The position numbers and the translations under genes were made by a program. Below, piece by piece: positions 51,558-60,011 of a DNA stretch of 64,000 nucleotides. Where the stretch lies: positions 124,001 to 188,000 of the forward strand of contig PAAG01000059.1 of the NCBI GenBank assembly GCA_002698785.1, in the 5' to 3' direction. The notes under the pieces were generated by a model, which saw nothing but the letters and a program-made list of their open reading frames with translations, ran no database searches and was not told where the DNA came from. Numbering within the stretch: position 1 is the first letter of the stretch; each line of letters begins with the position of its first letter. The DNA comes from Verrucomicrobiales bacterium (GTDB lineage: Bacteria > Verrucomicrobiota > Verrucomicrobiia > Verrucomicrobiales > DEV007).

Positions 51558-54065
51558 ATGATTCGCCTGCGAACCATTGCCGTTGCTTGTTTGTCTATCG
51601 TTTCCGCAGGAGTCGCTGACGACAAGGCTGCGTTTTTCGAGGAGCACGTCCGGCCGCTTCTGCTGGATCGCTGCTCCAAATGCCATGATGGCTCTCCAGA
51701 GGCCAGGTCGGAGCTTTCTGTTTTGTCGCGTGCCACACTCATGGAAGGTGGCGATTTTGGTCCAGCCATTGCGCCTGGAAAAGCAGAGGAAAGCCTTCTC
51801 ATCGAGGCCATGCGCCACACTCACAAAGAACTCCATATGCCGCCCAAAGGGAAAGCCCGCCTTACCCCAGACGAGATCTCCATATTTGTGAAGTGGATAA
51901 ACGAAGGTGCTGTATGGCCGGGCGACACTCCCAGAAAGGAACTTACCCATGCGAAGAAAGACACAGGTCCCAAGATTCCTTTTGATCCTGAAGAAGATTG
52001 GTCTCTCCTGCCTCGCCAAGTAGTATCGCCGCCCGAGTCAAACGATCCGCGCTGGAATCAAAATGAAATCGACCGCTTCGTCGCAGCGGAGAGAGAAAAC
52101 AGCGGCCTTCAAGCGAATGGTCGAGCCGACCGACGCACGCTGATACGCAGAGCCACCTTCGACTTGACCGGGCTGCCTCCCCTGCAGGAAGATGTGGACA
52201 ATTTCCTGGGTGATCGCGACCAAGACCATGTGGCATTCAGGAAAGTTGTAGACCGATTGCTCGGATCGCCCGAATACGGGCAAAGAGCAGCCCGTCTCTG
52301 GCTTGATGTCGCACGGTATGCTGATACCCAAGGGGACGTAGGCGATTATCCTATTCCAACCGCGTATTTGTATCGGAACTGGGTTGTGGATTCTTTCAAT
52401 CGAGACCTTCCATTCGATCAATTCCTGATGGCTCAGCTTGCCGGGGATATTCTGGCAACCGAAGCTGAAGACGAAACTCTCGCGAGAGAACTGACCATTG
52501 CGACCGGATTCATTTCCTTATCGAGACGGTTCGGAAACAGTAAGAAGGATAATATTCATCTCACAATCGAAGACACTCTCGACACTTTAGGACGAGGTGT
52601 GTTGGGCATGACACTTCGGTGCGCTCGCTGTCACGACCACAAGTTCGACCCCGTATCGAATGAGGATTACTACGCTCTCTACGGAATCTTTGAGAGCACG
52701 ATTTACCCTTGGATGGGAATGTCTGTGGAAAAGTCACCCAGCGACCTTAGCCCCGCAATTCCCAATCCTGAGTCGAGGAAGAAGGTGACAGAGTTTTTCG
52801 ATCTCATCACTCACTACGAATACCAAATCAACAACCACTTTCGCCCCTGGTTAAAACCGACTCTGGATGAATACAAAGACGTCTGTGGCGAAATGGACCG
52901 CCTCACAAAAGCATCGGTAAAAGACGAATTGGAGGTGGCGGCACTGGAAGAAAAGCGAGATGAACTGCTCGAATTCCGCGGCGGGAAATTTCGAGAACTG
53001 ATGAAACACGGATTGAAGTGGGTGAAGGATGAGAAGACACGCCTCGCTAAGGACCCCGGAATGGAATTGATCTTCGCCGTCGGAGAGGGAAAACCCGGTG
53101 ACACGAAACTCCACCGACGCGGGAATCCAGAGCAGACGGGCGATCTGGTCCCACGAGGATTCATTGGGGCAATACAAGGAGCTGAGAAGCCCCCGATTGA
53201 CAGTGGATCGGGGCGACTTGAGCTGGCTCAGTGGCTGACCGATCCACAACATCCCCTTACAGCACGCGTTTTCGTAAACCGAATCTGGCAACAGCACTTC
53301 GGACAAGGCCTAGTGAATACTCCGGATAACTTTGGTCGCCAGGGATCACAGCCGTCTCATCCGGAACTCCTCGACTGGCTGGCAGAGAATTTCATCAATA
53401 ATGGCTGGTCGGTGAAGGAGCTGCACCGCCGCATTCTGTTGACAGAATCGTATCAACTGGCCTCGCTCGGTGAGAATCCGGAAGCAGAAACCAAAGATCC
53501 AACTAACATTTATCTATGGAAATATCCACGTCGCCGCCTCGACGCAGAATCGATTCGCGACAGCATGCTGGCTGTGAGCGGCGAATTGGACAAGTCACAA
53601 CCACAGGGGCACGACATTCCACCTTGGTATAACAAGCGCTACGGACTGAACGGACCATTTCACCAGGAAATCGAGACGAATCACCGTAGCGTTTACTTGC
53701 TCACCCAGCGTATTTACCGCCATTCGCAGTTGGGACTCTTTGACGCTCCCGATCGCAACACGAGCACATCATCACGCACGAGCTCAAATGTCCCGGCACA
53801 GGCTCTTTTCCTGATGAATTCAGATTTTGTCAAAGAACGAGCCGAGGCGCTTGCCAGTCGAATCCAGAAAGTAGCAAGCAATGACGATGGCAGAATTGAA
53901 GCTTTGTATTCTCTCGTATTGAATCGGACTCCTGGAGAAACAGAAAGAGTACGGATCGTGCAGTTTATCGAATCATACAGAAGATCTGCAGCCAAAGAGA
54001 GGAATGAATGGGTAGGGCTCAGCCGGGCAATTCTAACAGGCAACGAATTTTTCTTTTTCGAGTAA
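51558..54065 (+). CDS. PSCyt1 / DUF1549 (PSCyt2) / DUF1553 (PSD1) protein
   Basis: 835 aa from ATG 51558, giving a short signal peptide (TIAVACLSIVSAGVA). Residues about 25-120 are a planctomycete cytochrome c-like domain with heme site CSKCH and DFGPAIAPGKAEES...HMPPKG. Residues about 170-380 are DUF1549 with LARFIRRATFDLTGLPP-type RRATFDLTGLPP, RLWLDVARYADTQG and CARCHDHKFDPV. The C-terminal part is DUF1553 (ARVFVNRIWQQHFGQGLV, SHPELLDWLAENFI). Widespread in PVC genomes; predicted periplasmic electron-transfer or degradative role. Directly followed by the DUF1501 gene. Confidence 0.93.
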   Translation: MIRLRTIAVACLSIVSAGVADDKAAFFEEHVRPLLLDRCSKCHDGSPEARSELSVLSRATLMEGGDFGPAIAPGKAEESLLIEAMRHTHKELHMPPKGKARLTPDEISIFVKWINEGAVWPGDTPRKELTHAKKDTGPKIPFDPEEDWSLLPRQVVSPPESNDPRWNQNEIDRFVAAERENSGLQANGRADRRTLIRRATFDLTGLPPLQEDVDNFLGDRDQDHVAFRKVVDRLLGSPEYGQRAARLWLDVARYADTQGDVGDYPIPTAYLYRNWVVDSFNRDLPFDQFLMAQLAGDILATEAEDETLARELTIATGFISLSRRFGNSKKDNIHLTIEDTLDTLGRGVLGMTLRCARCHDHKFDPVSNEDYYALYGIFESTIYPWMGMSVEKSPSDLSPAIPNPESRKKVTEFFDLITHYEYQINNHFRPWLKPTLDEYKDVCGEMDRLTKASVKDELEVAALEEKRDELLEFRGGKFRELMKHGLKWVKDEKTRLAKDPGMELIFAVGEGKPGDTKLHRRGNPEQTGDLVPRGFIGAIQGAEKPPIDSGSGRLELAQWLTDPQHPLTARVFVNRIWQQHFGQGLVNTPDNFGRQGSQPSHPELLDWLAENFINNGWSVKELHRRILLTESYQLASLGENPEAETKDPTNIYLWKYPRRRLDAESIRDSMLAVSGELDKSQPQGHDIPPWYNKRYGLNGPFHQEIETNHRSVYLLTQRIYRHSQLGLFDAPDRNTSTSSRTSSNVPAQALFLMNSDFVKERAEALASRIQKVASNDDGRIEALYSLVLNRTPGETERVRIVQFIESYRRSAAKERNEWVGLSRAILTGNEFFFFE

Positions 54066-55433
54066 ATGAAAAGCGGCAACCACATTACACGCCGAAAGGC
54101 ACTCCAGACCGCTTTTGGTGTGCTGCCTGCTGCAGTTGGCCTGCCTCAACTTACCGCCGCCACGACTGCCCACATCCAACCGCGGGCCAAACATGTAATC
54201 GTCCTTTACATGTCAGGGGGATATTCGCATGTCGACACTTTCGACCCGAAGCCCAGACTAACACGTGACCATGACATCTCGATTGGCAGCGATCTCAAGC
54301 GGCCCGGTTTCGAACGCTACCTGAAAGGAGCAGACTGGGATTTCAAACCCAACCGATATTGTGGAACCGAAGTGAGCGATCTTTTTCCACATATCCGGGA
54401 GATGATGCACGAAGTCGCCCTGATTCGATCGATGAACTGTGATCACAGCGACCACGGCGAAGCCACGTTACAATTGCACACATGGAGCACAGGTTTCGCC
54501 ATGCCCTCGCTGGGATCGTGGTTGTCCTATGGGTTGGGATCTTTCAATCCGAATCTTCCCAGTCATGTTGTCATTTCAGAGCATCGCCCTTACAGCGGAC
54601 CGCAGATCTGGGATTCCAATTTTCTTCCCGGTGTGCATGCAGGTGTGCAGATCATGCCGGGAGATGAACCTCTCCCAAATCTCACACCTGCCTCCCCTGG
54701 CGATCTTCAGAATTTGGAGCTTTCGTTACTGGACACGTTGAATCGTGAACATTCACGGAAACGGCCTGTAGATGCGCAGCTTGTTGCCAGAAATGAATCT
54801 TTCAAAACAGCCAAGGGCCTCCAAGATCTCGCGCCCGAAGCACTCGATCTAACGAAAGAGTCAAAAGCCACACTGGACCTGTATGGAGCCCAAGCGGGAA
54901 ATACAACGTCATACGCAGCTCAAGCAATCATGGCGAGACGACTTGTCGAACGCGGGGTCCGCTTTGTCGAAATCATCGATGCAGTCGGTGCCTGCCGTGA
55001 CAACTGGGACGCTGCACATCGGGACATGGCCTCTCATGAGAAGTATGCCAGCCGAGTCGACAAACCCGTAGCGGGTCTCATCAAGGACTTGAAGCAACGC
55101 GGGATGCTTGACGATGTCCTTTTGGTGTTCTGCACTGAATTTGGTCGAACTCCATGGGCCCAGGAAGGCAAGGGAACGAAGAGCCGTAACCATCATCCCA
55201 GCGCCTTTTCCTGCTGGCTCGCCGGTGGCGGCGTGAAGCCGGGAGTCGTTTACGGTAAGACCGACGATATCGGAAATCGCATTATCGAGGATTCCGTGCA
55301 CATACACGATTTTCATGCCACGATTCTTCACATCATGGGACTGAACCATGAAAAGCTCACGTTCCGGCACGCAGGACGGGACTTTAGACTAACCGACATA
55401 CACGGGAGGATCGTGGACGATATCCTCCTTTGA
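54066..55433 (+). CDS. DUF1501 protein (sulfatase-like fold), probable Tat substrate
   Basis: 455 aa. Starts right after the preceding stop codon. The N-terminus ITRRKALQTAFGVLPAAVGLPQLTA resembles a twin-arginine signal (RRKAL). The mature part has KHVIVLYMSGGYSHVDTFDPKP, MNCDHSDHGEATLQLHTWSTG, VFCTEFGRTPWAQ and GKGTKSRNHHP, the metal-binding blocks of DUF1501, an alkaline-phosphatase-fold family. It is nearly always next to DUF1549/1553 in PVC genomes, implying a common pathway in the periplasm. Confidence 0.93.
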   Translation: MKSGNHITRRKALQTAFGVLPAAVGLPQLTAATTAHIQPRAKHVIVLYMSGGYSHVDTFDPKPRLTRDHDISIGSDLKRPGFERYLKGADWDFKPNRYCGTEVSDLFPHIREMMHEVALIRSMNCDHSDHGEATLQLHTWSTGFAMPSLGSWLSYGLGSFNPNLPSHVVISEHRPYSGPQIWDSNFLPGVHAGVQIMPGDEPLPNLTPASPGDLQNLELSLLDTLNREHSRKRPVDAQLVARNESFKTAKGLQDLAPEALDLTKESKATLDLYGAQAGNTTSYAAQAIMARRLVERGVRFVEIIDAVGACRDNWDAAHRDMASHEKYASRVDKPVAGLIKDLKQRGMLDDVLLVFCTEFGRTPWAQEGKGTKSRNHHPSAFSCWLAGGGVKPGVVYGKTDDIGNRIIEDSVHIHDFHATILHIMGLNHEKLTFRHAGRDFRLTDIHGRIVDDILL

Positions 55434-55761
55434 GTTTCTTGTGACAATTCGGAGAAATTCCGGAAACTATTTGAAACCGGAGTGCAATTACACTACTTCT
55501 AGTATTACTTAGATCGGGATGTGAATTCCATGTGCTCGCTCCCGACTTACACCATAACAGGAACTTCTTGTGTTGTGATTTCCTGAATTTGAATCCAACG
55601 CAGGAAGCGGGTTTATGCCGTTTGCGCTTTCAACACATCTCCCCATCATCCAGTTGGATCATTGCTTCTCTGCAACGATCTGGTCATCGCTGACCCCACC
55701 CTGCTTCCCGACGAGCAGTGTCTTTCAACCCACCTTTCCGCCAACCATCGGGAACTGAACT
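55434..55761. other. Intergenic region before the polyamine operon
   Basis: About 330 bp with no convincing gene. A weak hairpin CGGA-GAAAT-TCCG lies near the start, after the DUF1501 stop. The remainder may hold the operon promoter and a leader, but I see no recognisable riboswitch or repeat. Confidence 0.4.
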
Positions 55762-56442
55762 ATGCTGTTGTATATACTAACATTCTCCCTCGCTTTCTGC
55801 AGCATCGTTTACGAACTACTGCTCGCGCAAACCCTCTCCGCTTTTCTCGGCAACACAGTTCTTCGCTTCAGTGTCACTATTGGACTCTATCTTCTCTCGA
55901 TGGGAATCGGTCCACTTCTGATGCGGGGAAATACGACAAAGAACCCCGTCACGACTCTCCAGAAAGTCGAACTCGGTCTGGCATTAGGAGGAGCTGGTTC
56001 GGTAGCTTCTCTTTTTCTTCTCGACTGGGCCGGCATGCCATCCATTGGGCTTTCGATTTTTGCCCATTCACTGATCCTCGGAATCGGATTTCTAACAGGG
56101 CTGGAGATTCCGCTCTTGATTGAGATTCGGAATCGAAAGAAGAAAGACTCCGAAGCCGGTGTCCTCGGTATCGACTACCTGGGAGCATTTGCAGGAACAT
56201 TGATATTTGCCTTTCTCTTTTATCCGAAGATCGGACTGGTTCCCACCTCGTTCATCATCGCAACGGTCAACTCAGTTGCTGGTATTTTCCTGATTCGCTA
56301 TTCCTCCCTGGTTGCGCGCGAGCGGAAGAAACTGTTCACCGGCTTGGTTCTCACGCAGGTTGTTCTCGCCTGTTTGTTTATCTACGGAATTTTCATGTCC
56401 GAATCTGTTAACGACTTTCTCATTCAACTTTACCTAACGTAA
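55762..56442 (+). CDS. Membrane protein homologous to the N-terminal domain of membrane-bound spermidine synthase
   Basis: 226 aa, about seven helices. Its opening (FSLAFCSIVYELLLAQTLSAFLG) and later SVTIGLYLLSMGIG, GFLTGLEIPLLIEI and GIDYLGAFAGTLIFA are clearly related to the N-terminal part of the 639-aa gene two places downstream (FLVAICSILYQLTIAQTLS, SVTVGLFLLGMGFG, GILTGIELPLLMRI, GIDYIGSLVGAVVF). There is no aminopropyltransferase domain. It may pair with the full-length protein as a heterodimeric membrane component or be a transporter-like module. Confidence 0.8.
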   Translation: MLLYILTFSLAFCSIVYELLLAQTLSAFLGNTVLRFSVTIGLYLLSMGIGPLLMRGNTTKNPVTTLQKVELGLALGGAGSVASLFLLDWAGMPSIGLSIFAHSLILGIGFLTGLEIPLLIEIRNRKKKDSEAGVLGIDYLGAFAGTLIFAFLFYPKIGLVPTSFIIATVNSVAGIFLIRYSSLVARERKKLFTGLVLTQVVLACLFIYGIFMSESVNDFLIQLYLT

Positions 56443-56456
56443 CGCTATTGCATTCC

Positions 56457-56816
56457 ATGGATCACGAAATTGGAGAGCACCACTTGATCGAGTTTGTCGG
56501 CTGCCCGGCAGAGAAACTCAAATATAAGTCACTGATCGAACCGGTATTGATGGAAGCGGTTCATCGATCTGGAGCAGAATCCATTGGCCAGTTGTCACAC
56601 CAGTTCAAACCGTTTGGTGTGACCTGTATGGTACTGATAGCAGAATCGCACTTCTCCCTGCACACCTGGCCCGAGAAAGGGTACGCCGCAATGGACATCT
56701 TCACCTGCGGAGAGATGGATTCCGAAGCTGCCATCGCTTATGTGGCGAAACATCTGGAGGCGGAAAGTTACGCGAAGAAAACAATCCCGCGTATCGCTGA
56801 GGGGGTGACCGCGTAA
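56457..56816 (+). CDS. speD: S-adenosylmethionine decarboxylase proenzyme (class 1B)
   Basis: 119 aa from ATG 56457; TTG 56448 is an in-frame alternative. The motif IAESHFSLHTWPEKGYAAMD carries the self-cleavage Glu-Ser site (the Ser becomes pyruvoyl), a catalytic His 5 residues later, and DIFTCG with Cys 20 residues after the Ser, the same spacing as in Thermotoga SpeD. Makes decarboxylated SAM, the aminopropyl donor. Ends in TAATG overlapping the spermidine synthase start. Confidence 0.95.
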   Translation: MDHEIGEHHLIEFVGCPAEKLKYKSLIEPVLMEAVHRSGAESIGQLSHQFKPFGVTCMVLIAESHFSLHTWPEKGYAAMDIFTCGEMDSEAAIAYVAKHLEAESYAKKTIPRIAEGVTA

Positions 56817-58735
56817 TGGATGATTCCGATACCAGATCTCAACGAATCGGGTTATTCGCCTCGACCTTCCTGGTCGCGATATGCAGCATCCTCTATCAAC
56901 TGACAATTGCTCAAACACTGTCGCTGCTCGCAGCGAACACGGTGATCTGGTACAGCGTCACGGTGGGCCTTTTTCTTCTGGGGATGGGCTTCGGTTCTTT
57001 TCTGAGCGAGAAACTCTGCAAGATCAATCCCCCGTGGAATGCTCTGATCTATGTTGAAACTTTGCTCTGCCTGGTTGGATCGCTGTCTTCCCCGCTGATT
57101 CACATAGGGCACACGGTGACAGGATATGAGATGCTGAGCACTACCTCGGTATTTGCCGTTTTCCCCTTTTTTGGCGGTGCGTTCCTTTTAACGATTTTAA
57201 TAGGAATCCTGACCGGAATCGAACTCCCTTTGTTGATGCGAATCGGAAAGTCGCTATCGAACGATCCTCAAATCACGTATCGCATCCTGGGTATCGATTA
57301 CATTGGCTCCCTTGTCGGCGCTGTTGTCTTTCCACTGTTTCTCGTTCCTCATCTTGAAGTGATCACGATCGGGTTCACGGTTGCGGTGCTCAATATTTCT
57401 GTCGCTCTCTTTCTGAACTGGAAGCGCCGAAACAAGAGGCTTCCCATGTTTATCCGAGCCGGGATAGCTGTCCTACTTGCTGCCGGAGTCGCTCTTGCGC
57501 TTCTCAACAGCGATTCGATCAATAAATACTTTATCCGAAAATACTATTATCTGACCGAGCTCGCCTATGGAGGGGGACTGAAAGATGTTTTCACGTTTGA
57601 AAAAAAATTCCCTGATGTCTTTCGAGCCAGCTCCCCTTATCAGAAGATCGACCTCATGGAGGATCCCGCGGTAGATCCCTCGAAAGATTTTATTGATGCT
57701 TACAGCACCAAGTTCATCGAGAACCCTGATTACCCAAAGAAGAACATTCTGTTCCTCAATGGCGATTTTCAACTTACCTCAAGCTACGAAGAGATTTACC
57801 ACGAGTATTTTGCTCACGTTCCTATTATTGCGAGCGGAAAAGTGCCGAAGAAGGTATTGCTGCTAGGAGGAGGTGACGGGCTTCTCGCTAGAGAGCTTGT
57901 TAAGTATGAGGAGATCGAGTCAATCACCCACGTCGACCTCGATAAAACTCTCGTCGAACTCGCCAATACTCATCCGATTCTCTCGAAGATGAACGAAGGT
58001 TCCTTTCAAGATCCCCGAGTAACGACGATCTTTGGGGACGCCTATCAGTATGTGCGGCGCTCGGAAGAAAAGTTCGACGCCATCTACATCGATTTTCCCA
58101 TGCCCGCCGACTATGACCTGGCTAAACTCTACAGCCGGGAGTTCTTCCATTTCACGAGGGAGCGTATCAAAGAGGACGGCTACGTAGTTTTCGACGCGAC
58201 AGGGACGGGGTATTTGAGCGGTCCCGACAGACAGGGAGGACAGGTAGTCAACAGCGACAACGACTGGCCATATTATTACGCCACGCTCAAGGCGGCGGGT
58301 TTTCCAGAGATACAGCCCTACATTACAACATTGGAACTCGATAACCCTGTTGTAGATGAAATCCTGAGTCGCCCGGACACCAACCTGATTCTCAGTCCGG
58401 AAGTGATGCAAATGTTCGAGTTTGTGAATACTCCTGCAGAGGAGCAAGCGGTCACCGATGCTGTAGTACGGCTAGCCAAACACAACATGGTTGCCGATCA
58501 CATCATGCCGTTGCAGCAAGGCTTCATACTGTTGGGAAATATGATTGGTGGTTTCTCCGGAGAATTTGGAGACGGTCCCGGCGTGCCGCTTCACATTCTG
58601 AACGAGAAACGTTACGAACTCGCTTTCCTGGTTGATTTTCCCAAGCCGAAAGAAATCGACGAGGACAAGTTGAACTCGATCATGCGACCAACGTTTCCGA
58701 CACTTCCGCTGTGGCAACCTAGAACCGCATTCTAA
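56816..58735 (+). CDS. Spermidine synthase fused to an N-terminal membrane domain
   Basis: 639 aa. Residues about 1-215 form a seven-helix membrane domain; residues about 240-600 are the aminopropyltransferase: NGDFQLTSSYEEIYHEYFAHVP, VLLLGGGDGLLARELVKYEEI (dcSAM loop), HVDLDKTLVELA, DAYQYVRRSEEKFDAIYIDFPMPAD (catalytic Asp region). Transfers the aminopropyl group to putrescine or a similar amine at the membrane. Co-translated with speD. A membrane domain of this kind is shared with the 226-aa gene two places upstream. Stop overlaps that of the beta-helix gene in CTAA. Confidence 0.93.
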   Translation: MDDSDTRSQRIGLFASTFLVAICSILYQLTIAQTLSLLAANTVIWYSVTVGLFLLGMGFGSFLSEKLCKINPPWNALIYVETLLCLVGSLSSPLIHIGHTVTGYEMLSTTSVFAVFPFFGGAFLLTILIGILTGIELPLLMRIGKSLSNDPQITYRILGIDYIGSLVGAVVFPLFLVPHLEVITIGFTVAVLNISVALFLNWKRRNKRLPMFIRAGIAVLLAAGVALALLNSDSINKYFIRKYYYLTELAYGGGLKDVFTFEKKFPDVFRASSPYQKIDLMEDPAVDPSKDFIDAYSTKFIENPDYPKKNILFLNGDFQLTSSYEEIYHEYFAHVPIIASGKVPKKVLLLGGGDGLLARELVKYEEIESITHVDLDKTLVELANTHPILSKMNEGSFQDPRVTTIFGDAYQYVRRSEEKFDAIYIDFPMPADYDLAKLYSREFFHFTRERIKEDGYVVFDATGTGYLSGPDRQGGQVVNSDNDWPYYYATLKAAGFPEIQPYITTLELDNPVVDEILSRPDTNLILSPEVMQMFEFVNTPAEEQAVTDAVVRLAKHNMVADHIMPLQQGFILLGNMIGGFSGEFGDGPGVPLHILNEKRYELAFLVDFPKPKEIDEDKLNSIMRPTFPTLPLWQPRTAF

Positions 58736-59937
58736 GGATTGTCGATGAGGTTGCCGTCTACCTGGTGTCCTTTCCCGTCCGGCAAATCAAGCGGAATGGC
58801 TCCTTCTTCGTGACGCCCGAAATCGGTGATAATATTTCCGCGCACGAGGCACTTTGACGCAGCATCGTCAGCAACTACCGCCGAACCGGAAATCCCCGAA
58901 AAGGTGTTCCCACTTATGGTGACTAATGACGCGCCTTCCAAGACTACGCCAGTTCCCATGTCTATTTTGATCGGGTTCTGATCTTCTATCGGGCGCTTGA
59001 TTTCGCCATTTCCGATATAGGAATTTGAAAAGCTGTTTCCAGTAATCGTGATGCGTCCGCTTTCGGACCCGACTCGGACTCCGTGACGATGGACGAGCGT
59101 GAAGGTATTGGCAGAAACGGAACAACCGTGAGCGTCACGCAAGTCGACTCCGCCTTCCATGTCGTGGGCGATGACGTTTGCACTGAGCGTAATACCATAA
59201 CAATCTCGGTCGAGGATAATGGCGGTGCCCTGACATTCTTCGATCATGTTACCCGAAACTACTGATCCATAGGTGTTTTCGATTACCACTCCGTTTCCAA
59301 GATGGTCGTCGAGATTGTTACCGTTCATGCACAGATTGAAGGCGTCGGTGCAGAAGACCGCATCATCGTTCTCCTCAAAGTGGTTCGCATTGACGACGAT
59401 GTCATGACAACCGTCGATGAACAGTCCTGCAGCTTTATTGTAGGTGATGATTGAATCATTCACCCGGGGATCCTCGTAGCAGTCGATAAGGGCAATTCCG
59501 TGGCCGCCATGATGGTCGACGGAGAGTCCCTGGATAAAGATCTCCTGAATTCCCGTCGCCTGAATACCGTGGCCGCTTTTCTCATTTCCGGAGATACGGA
59601 AGTTTCCCAGTTGGATTCGCCAGAGCCGGGCATTCGGATCCTCTGCGATGGTCGAAGGCTCAATGACAAATGCGGGTTTTCCCTCTTCATTGGTGTTTTT
59701 GATGTGAGTCGATGCCCCTGAACCCTCGATTCGAGTTTCTGCCCTGAAGATTCGCAAGGGTTCGGAAATCTCAAATGTTCCGGGAGGCATTTTCACAATC
59801 CCCCCTGATTCGGGTAGCGCATCGAAAGCTTTCTGTATCGAATCGAAGTCAGAACTATCCAAAACTACCGGAACTGGCTCTTGAGCAGCTCCATTCATCA
59901 GGATAAAAACAAATCCGAGATGGAAAAATTTCTTCAT
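58732..59937 (-). CDS. Secreted right-handed beta-helix protein
   Basis: 401 aa. Signal peptide (MKKFFHLGFVFILMNGAAQ). The entry segment DFDSIQKAFDALPESGGIVKMPPGTFEI is the pectate-lyase-3-like cap. About ten coils follow, each with a xxNxFxxxxxGxxIxx pattern (VVNANHFEENDDAVF, VVSGNMIEECQGTAI, TISGNTFSGISGSAV). Family PF13229/NosD-like. Binds or cleaves polysaccharide at the cell surface; catalytic residues are not obvious. Convergent with the spermidine synthase. Confidence 0.85.
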   Translation of the reverse strand: MKKFFHLGFVFILMNGAAQEPVPVVLDSSDFDSIQKAFDALPESGGIVKMPPGTFEISEPLRIFRAETRIEGSGASTHIKNTNEEGKPAFVIEPSTIAEDPNARLWRIQLGNFRISGNEKSGHGIQATGIQEIFIQGLSVDHHGGHGIALIDCYEDPRVNDSIITYNKAAGLFIDGCHDIVVNANHFEENDDAVFCTDAFNLCMNGNNLDDHLGNGVVIENTYGSVVSGNMIEECQGTAIILDRDCYGITLSANVIAHDMEGGVDLRDAHGCSVSANTFTLVHRHGVRVGSESGRITITGNSFSNSYIGNGEIKRPIEDQNPIKIDMGTGVVLEGASLVTISGNTFSGISGSAVVADDAASKCLVRGNIITDFGRHEEGAIPLDLPDGKGHQVDGNLIDNP

Positions 59938-60011
59938 TCTTTACTGACGATGAGATAGTGAAAATCAGCCAATTGAGAACTGGGCGTATCTGCGGAAAGA
60001 ACAGTTTTGTA

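Follow-up and report, generated by a model that had tools for sequence, protein, structure and literature searches.

Why should a gene for S-adenosylmethionine (AdoMet) decarboxylase lie between two genes whose products carry the same membrane module, when only one of these products continues into a spermidine synthase-like domain? The question is raised by a 64-kb stretch of a Verrucomicrobiales bacterium (assembly GCA_002698785.1, contig PAAG01000059.1, positions 124,001 to 188,000), here called the window, within which all positions are given. Three plus-strand genes are concerned: S, a stand-alone membrane protein of 226 amino acids (aa) (P0001, 55762-56442); SpeD, the decarboxylase (56457-56816); and E, a SpeE-like protein of 639 aa (P0003, 56816-58735). 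The SpeD stop codon overlaps the start of E in the sequence TAATG, and the gap between S and SpeD is 14 or 5 bp, depending on whether the ATG at 56457 or an alternative in-frame TTG at 56448 is taken as the SpeD start, so that the three genes read as one operon. An Rfam scan of positions 54000-60000 at gathering thresholds gave no match. We favor, with a probability of about one half, the reading that the operon encodes a three-part membrane aminopropyltransferase, in which S and E pair as two halves of a major facilitator superfamily (MFS) fold and catalysis takes place on the extracytoplasmic side.

The original prediction for this locus had noted motifs shared by the 226-aa protein and the N-terminus of the SpeE-like protein, with SpeD encoded between them. 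The open reading frames confirm this, and all four motif pairs were found (S/E: LAQTLS/IAQTLS, SVTIGL/SVTVGL, GLEIPLL/GIELPLL and GIDYLG/GIDYIG). A likeness limited to these few motifs can be ruled out, since pairwise BLASTP aligned residues 3-177 of S with residues 13-200 of E at 35% identity over 192 columns (82.8 bits, E-value 1e-22). The alignment spans most of the membrane module and the likeness therefore goes far beyond the motifs; by this comparison, S is a paralog of the N-terminal part of E. Both proteins also matched NF002956/PRK03612, S over the membrane part (profile positions 21-235, E-value 1.2e-39, 136.1 bits) and E over its whole length (E-value 5.9e-90, 302.1 bits), at scores below the equivalog cut-off of 472 bits. 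Scores with NF037959, the fused MFS/spermidine synthase family, were 20.7 bits for E and 16.5 bits for S and fell below its cut-off of 40 bits, and E exceeded the cut-off of PF01564 (99.8 versus 22.9 bits). Assignment of S to DUF350 was rejected because a Pfam search with S gave no DUF350 match; the sole match was a chance-level one to DUF2148 (E-value 0.18).

The three proteins occur together in distant genomes. A contig scan with S returned 36 loci, 25 of which encode S or S fused to SpeD, while the remaining 11 are E-type fusions whose membrane part matched the query. Membrane-bound E was present at 25/25 S loci and SpeD at 23/25. Record titles of the loci include Omnitrophota, gammaproteobacteria, Bdellovibrionales, Deltaproteobacteria, Bacteriovoracaceae and Dehalococcoidales. 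With the S profile, phylum scans centred via L025 (Omnitrophota, 285 genomes), L057 (Bdellovibrionales, 45 genomes) and L042 (Bacteriovorax, 191 genomes) covered 521 genomes in total and gave 9, 9 and 36 counted copies of S or SpeD-S, respectively. Two hits had been dropped before counting, namely a weak match of 42.6 bits with no SpeE in its 3.5-kb locus (G636, L081) and a hit that is itself a truncated E at a contig edge (G489:C224). The original prediction had named, as the outcome that would speak against it, a wide occurrence of S without spermidine synthase genes. This was not what we found: all 54 copies had E in the same genome, and in 46 it was adjacent or within about 3 kb (including G495:C376, whose partner module is truncated at the contig edge and whose genome encodes a full E elsewhere). 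For the other eight copies, E was on the other strand at less than 2 kb (two genomes, in one of which, G1000, the partner is only a catalytic fragment at the contig edge) or unlinked (six related genomes).

In these six genomes, all from the Bacteriovorax-centred scan (L162, L166, L167, L168, L169 and L171), S is divergent from the SpeD gene beside it and the membrane SpeE is elsewhere; the three downstream genes tested encode OppA-like substrate-binding proteins. At the order level, 293 genomes around the marine gammaproteobacterium HTCC2080 (L024), which carries the set, were scanned; one had S with E, and eight had only the E type. In the window's own phylum (387 genomes; 114 relatives), the window's genome alone gave a strong S, and the matches in plasmid records (21) were all below 60% identity.

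Gene fusions connect the same partners. At five loci of the contig scan, in Bacteriovoracaceae, S carries SpeD at its N-terminus as a fusion; SpeD-S fusions account for 10 of the 54 counted copies, these coming from the Bacteriovorax-centred scan and sharing some genomes with the five-locus set. In a single 731-aa chain (L178:4999-7194), an S-type module is followed by one of E type and by the catalytic domain, and in the tree the two modules of this chain group with an S (support 0.84) and with an E (support 0.89). Two module copies are also present in three related long proteins, encoded in frames of 775-886 aa, with hhalign probabilities of 97 and 80 against the S profile and 96.5 and 91.7 against the E profile; among them only L021 has a SpeE-like match within the DNA stretch examined. 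The 993-aa protein of the window's genome in which MFS and spermidine synthase (SpdSyn) parts are fused gave a weak two-copy match to the module. With 12-helix neighbors of the L024 type, hhalign gave no match to the module, and the two-module structure was seen in the other long proteins only. Fusions such as these, SpeD-S and tandem, classically point to a joint function of S, SpeD and E and to a unit made of two modules. Combined with the co-occurrence, they make a heteromeric S-SpeD-E membrane complex likely, and on this point the original prediction is well supported. A reservation is that the S-E tandem fusion was found in one genome only; four relatives from the same family did not show it.

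Structural models indicate what the shared module may be. The AlphaFold2 model of S (pLDDT 91.5, pTM 0.88) shows the six helices of the module, then a seventh and, at the C-terminus, a short one, and residues 1-185 match one half of an MFS protein. All 50 matches listed for this model were MFS proteins (Z 16.0-18.1, root-mean-square deviation (rmsd) 2.4-3.6 Å over 169-187 residues), the best with Z 18.1 and rmsd 2.5 over 172 residues, which exceeds the tool's level for unclear helical models. Some of the matched structures are titled by protein name only and are taken by us to belong to the MFS. These matches came from a second aligner; Foldseek alone gave no match for the S model at an E-value of 0.001, and searching the sequences of solved structures with the S profile yielded chance-level hits only (best E-value 0.019). 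The model of E (pLDDT 89.8) shows seven long helices, a linker helix and the catalytic domain. Residues 1-250 (56816-57565) comprise the second copy of the module with its seventh helix and an amphipathic linker, and residues 255-639 (57578-58732) form the aminopropyltransferase-fold domain, which is closest to Thermus thermophilus SpeE (3anx; Z 26.1, rmsd 2.4 over 272 residues). S and E thus carry one module each, not two repeats per chain as in an MFS transporter. Because S matches half an MFS fold, S and E resemble an MFS protein divided over two chains, the fold match being that of the S model alone.

The distribution of charges suggests how this pair is oriented. Lysine plus arginine counts in the loops of S were 9.3 on the N-terminal side and 1.7 on the opposite side, with the same sense in 19/19 sequences; for E they were 10.3 and 1.5 (24/24). 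By these loop charges, the N-termini of S and E should be cytosolic, and an N-inside arrangement with seven helices should place the catalytic domain of E outside. The position of SpeD at the N-terminus of S in the fusions agrees with this, as does the tandem fusion, whose modules follow each other without an intervening seventh helix, the layout that an N-inside arrangement demands. Cysteine content is an independent sign of an outside location. In the E sequences of alignment A2, the catalytic part has 4 cysteines in 8506 residues and the membrane part 96 in 6095; within the same genomes, seven soluble canonical SpeE proteins have 23 in 2096 residues and the catalytic parts of membrane E proteins 1 in 2461. 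The window's E has no cysteine in this domain. As far as these predictions go, the catalytic domain of E is probably extracytoplasmic.

Several observations pull the other way. The segment following helix 7 of E is fairly basic (2.67 lysine plus arginine per 21 residues) and, taken alone, would suit the cytosolic side. The hydropathy threshold was reached by E helix 7 in 18/24, helix 2 in 8/24 and helix 5 in 11/24 sequences, and by S helix 2 in 0/19. One of the seven same-genome cysteine comparisons was reversed (1 versus 0). Among E proteins adjoining S, 11/55 have 1-3 cysteines, including five Bacteriovoracota proteins with 2-3, and the six E proteins of the genomes with unlinked S (L181-L186) have 2 each in the catalytic part. 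Membrane SpeE-like proteins without S show an intermediate content of 0.47 cysteines per 100 aa, in a class that also took in L001 (the window copy), L108, L173 and L196, whose S is distant and which have no cysteine, as well as L181-L186. Furthermore, PRK03612-type proteins without S also look N-inside with a hydrophobic helix 7 (19/19 tested), so that the outside position of the catalytic domain may extend beyond the S-E pair.

The basic segment and the cysteines of some E domains, as well as the SpeD-S fusions and the full aminopropyltransferase fold that E retains, would fit a cytosolic metabolon: SpeD and a catalytic domain on the cytosolic side would be tethered next to each other by S and the membrane part of E, and decarboxylated AdoMet (dcAdoMet) would be channelled between them, with no transport and with an acceptor in the cytosol or at the inner leaflet. 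We consider this rather unlikely: seven predicted helices with N-inside charges speak for an outside domain, cysteine is nearly absent from most catalytic domains when compared with soluble SpeE of the same genomes, and half an MFS fold would be an elaborate anchor.

A different objection concerns the pairing itself. Membrane SpeE-like proteins without S are common, which indicates that E is not always dependent on S. This, and the six Bacteriovoracota genomes that keep S and SpeD away from E, would suit a role of S as an accessory subunit for assembly, stability or regulation of E, derived from a truncated copy, the pair having no transport role. Such a role appears improbable in view of the conservation of S, which has 43 invariant columns across 19 sequences. 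They include the membrane residues Glu18, Glu70 and Glu115 (19/19 each), mirrored in E by sites conserved in 23, 24 and 24 of 24 sequences, and the tandem modules in single chains suggest that two modules make one unit. Conserved acidic residues in the membrane helices of both modules would suit a cationic donor, although the window's own E is the exception at the first of these sites, with Gln28.

The chemistry of the two soluble parts bears on what the system may produce. SpeD scored 117 bits with PF02675 and 122.4 bits with TIGR03330 (cut-off 75.65), which assigns it to class 1b, and the processing and catalytic residues Ser67, His72 and Cys87 are kept. It is the only PF02675 match in the genome assembly, which is about 96% complete. 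According to an excerpt of PMC10407285, neofunctionalised SpeD proteins exist and a proline separates AdoMet decarboxylases from arginine decarboxylases; Pro55 and Pro75 of the window's SpeD are invariant in 22 aligned sequences, neither being matched to the diagnostic proline of that source. In E, the dcAdoMet-binding Asp354 and the catalytic Asp426 are present, and Met429 replaces the second aspartate of the D-x-x-D motif. The latter residue, which we take to line the acceptor site, is found in 6/26 E proteins (S-bearing loci plus the window) versus 19/19 PRK03612-type proteins in the same alignment, whereas the donor-binding aspartate of GxGD is found in 26/26. It is also lacking in the other 18 of the 37 comparison proteins, which are 11 archaeal or Cloacimonadota fusions with Gly or Ser and 7 more distant proteins. 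A canonical soluble SpeE (frames of 301-328 aa, >170 bits) is encoded as well in 7/22 S-bearing genomes, the genome of L030 being outside this count. With the donor aspartate kept, the second aspartate mostly lost and a canonical SpeE alongside, the acceptor of E need not be putrescine, although the six E proteins that retain the second aspartate do not follow this pattern. E is probably a dcAdoMet-dependent aminopropyltransferase whose acceptor is not necessarily putrescine.

The coupling of polyamine synthesis to transport that the original prediction proposed, with E making spermidine from putrescine and an S:E unit exporting it, is the least probable of these alternatives, for it has in its favor the MFS half-fold, the aminopropyltransferase fold and donor site of E, the rank of E as best of three PF01564 matches in the window's genome (102, 50 and 45 bits) beside the sole PF02675 match, and two ornithine/arginine/diaminopimelate-decarboxylase-family matches, to which family membership alone assigns no substrate, and has against it the loss of the acceptor-side aspartate in 20/26 E proteins, the additional canonical SpeE of seven genomes and the statement in an excerpt of PMC12803844, with reference to Li et al. 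2019, that homologues in bacteria of a fungal membrane-aminopropyltransferase fusion were shown to be uninvolved in spermidine/spermine synthesis. The transport side of that proposal agrees with the half-MFS fold; the topology, the low cysteine content and the loss of the second aspartate argue for extracytoplasmic aminopropylation over cytosolic spermidine synthesis followed by export.

In the three-part membrane aminopropyltransferase that we prefer, S and the membrane part of E would pair as homologous half-MFS modules to give a single MFS-like unit, and SpeD would dock on the cytosolic face of this unit. SpeD would make dcAdoMet in the cytosol, the donor would pass through or along the S:E unit to the catalytic domain of E across the membrane, and this domain would move the aminopropyl group to an extracytoplasmic acceptor, which may be a lipid, polymer, protein or amine. 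We regard the most far-reaching form of this scheme, a transmembrane aminopropylation machine that exports dcAdoMet through the split half-MFS pair and whose extracytoplasmic domain decorates an envelope component, as possible but doubtful. That we know of no dcAdoMet transport is a point against the preferred scheme as a whole.

The window's genome contains two more distant SpdSyn-like proteins, the 993-aa MFS-SpdSyn protein mentioned above (G000:C22, L002) and a 292-aa protein (G000:C20, L003). The latter has one N-terminal hydrophobic segment and reads GLGGG in place of GGGDG.

How the pair arose can be addressed in part from the tree. S proteins from several phyla form one clade (support 0.96), and each of its 28 tips is an S. 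The S and E of the window each group with the S and E of G821 (support 0.77 and 0.88), a genome from the Bdellovibrionales-centred scan whose S is 56% identical to the window's over 224 residues. This suggests horizontal acquisition of the operon. The GC content of the operon (0.496) is ordinary for the window, whose 3-kb stretches span 0.482-0.571, so base composition is uninformative on acquisition. A recent local duplication in the window's genome was also considered, and is disfavored by the multi-phylum S clade and the grouping with G821. The E clade is weak (support 0.15); it includes two truncated contig-edge modules script-labelled S, and the E of L035 lies near S. The tree therefore does not fix the order of events. 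Of the proposed duplication with loss of the catalytic domain, the paralogy stands, but the data do not establish loss as the direction, and S could equally descend from a separate first half of an MFS-like ancestor. S and E distances were correlated with r 0.93 over the 15 loci left after merging identical segments, with 0/2000 shuffles higher, which shows co-inheritance and not contact. In two genomes of the window's family, a weakly matching module of 219-229 aa is followed by a SpeE-like open reading frame (L014:1393-3552 and L015:1-2133); this is possibly an independent split of an MFS-SpdSyn protein.

The system can be compared with several known ones. With the PRK03612/NF002956 type it shares a seven-helix membrane module joined to an aminopropyltransferase domain, both being N-inside by loop charges; unlike that type, P0003 has a longer C-terminal domain that lacks the second aspartate and cysteine, and a separate S subunit. 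The fused MFS/spermidine synthases of NF037959, which often accompany SpeD, also combine an MFS-like membrane part with a SpdSyn-like domain, and their long forms hold two module copies. Here the halves are on separate chains, and E keeps the donor-binding aspartate whereas two fused neighbors read GxGxG. Compared with MFS transporters, of which S residues 1-185 match one six-helix half with Z up to 18.1, there is one half per chain and an extra seventh helix. Li et al. 2019, a study cited in both PMC12803844 and PMC11237479, reportedly proposed that MFS/SpdSyn-like fusions with SpeD and DUF350 have a polyamine-independent role. SpdSyn-like domains fused to a 7TM transporter-like domain occur in PspA operons, for which aminopropylation of other substrates was suggested, according to an excerpt of PMC11237479. 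The fungal N-terminal histidine methyltransferase (NHMT), in the portion of PMC10349129 that describes it, likewise joins a seven-helix module to a SpdSyn-like domain, resides in the endoplasmic reticulum and acts on secreted proteins. Unlike E, it is a methyltransferase with Ile at the donor aspartate site, and its 7TM region is reported there as unique to filamentous fungi; the likeness drawn here is one of description. Among the titles and abstract openings listed for papers on membrane-bound spermidine synthases, DUF350, split MFS transporters and dcAdoMet at the membrane, no description of the S-SpeD-E arrangement was found, which is not proof of absence.

Some neighboring genes recur. 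At six loci, a second MFS-SpdSyn-type protein of about 680-740 aa lies beside or inside the set (L024:2968-5004, L029:3230-5329, L030, L050, L027 and L028). The two examined read GxGxG, with the donor-binding aspartate gone, which suggests a different donor or a non-catalytic partner. Membrane proteins beside several of the loci (L042:3501-4631, L025:3916-4956 and L057:8571-9659) appear membrane acyltransferase-like by eye, and the first of these had no Pfam or NCBIfam match. Neither kind of neighbor gave a clue to the acceptor.

If the catalytic domain of E is extracytoplasmic, the absence of a role in spermidine synthesis would be explained, and the place to look for the acceptor would be the envelope and no longer the cytosol. 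The split form offers a simple handle for this, with a separable S, SpeD fused to S on the inside and the catalytic domain on the outside. If S and E pair, they would represent a natural MFS-like unit built from two encoded halves, which bears on the origin of the MFS by duplication. Transmembrane aminopropylation, if true, would combine the export of dcAdoMet with a natural MFS heteromer split over two chains, and cells may thus chemically modify something beyond the membrane using a donor made inside.

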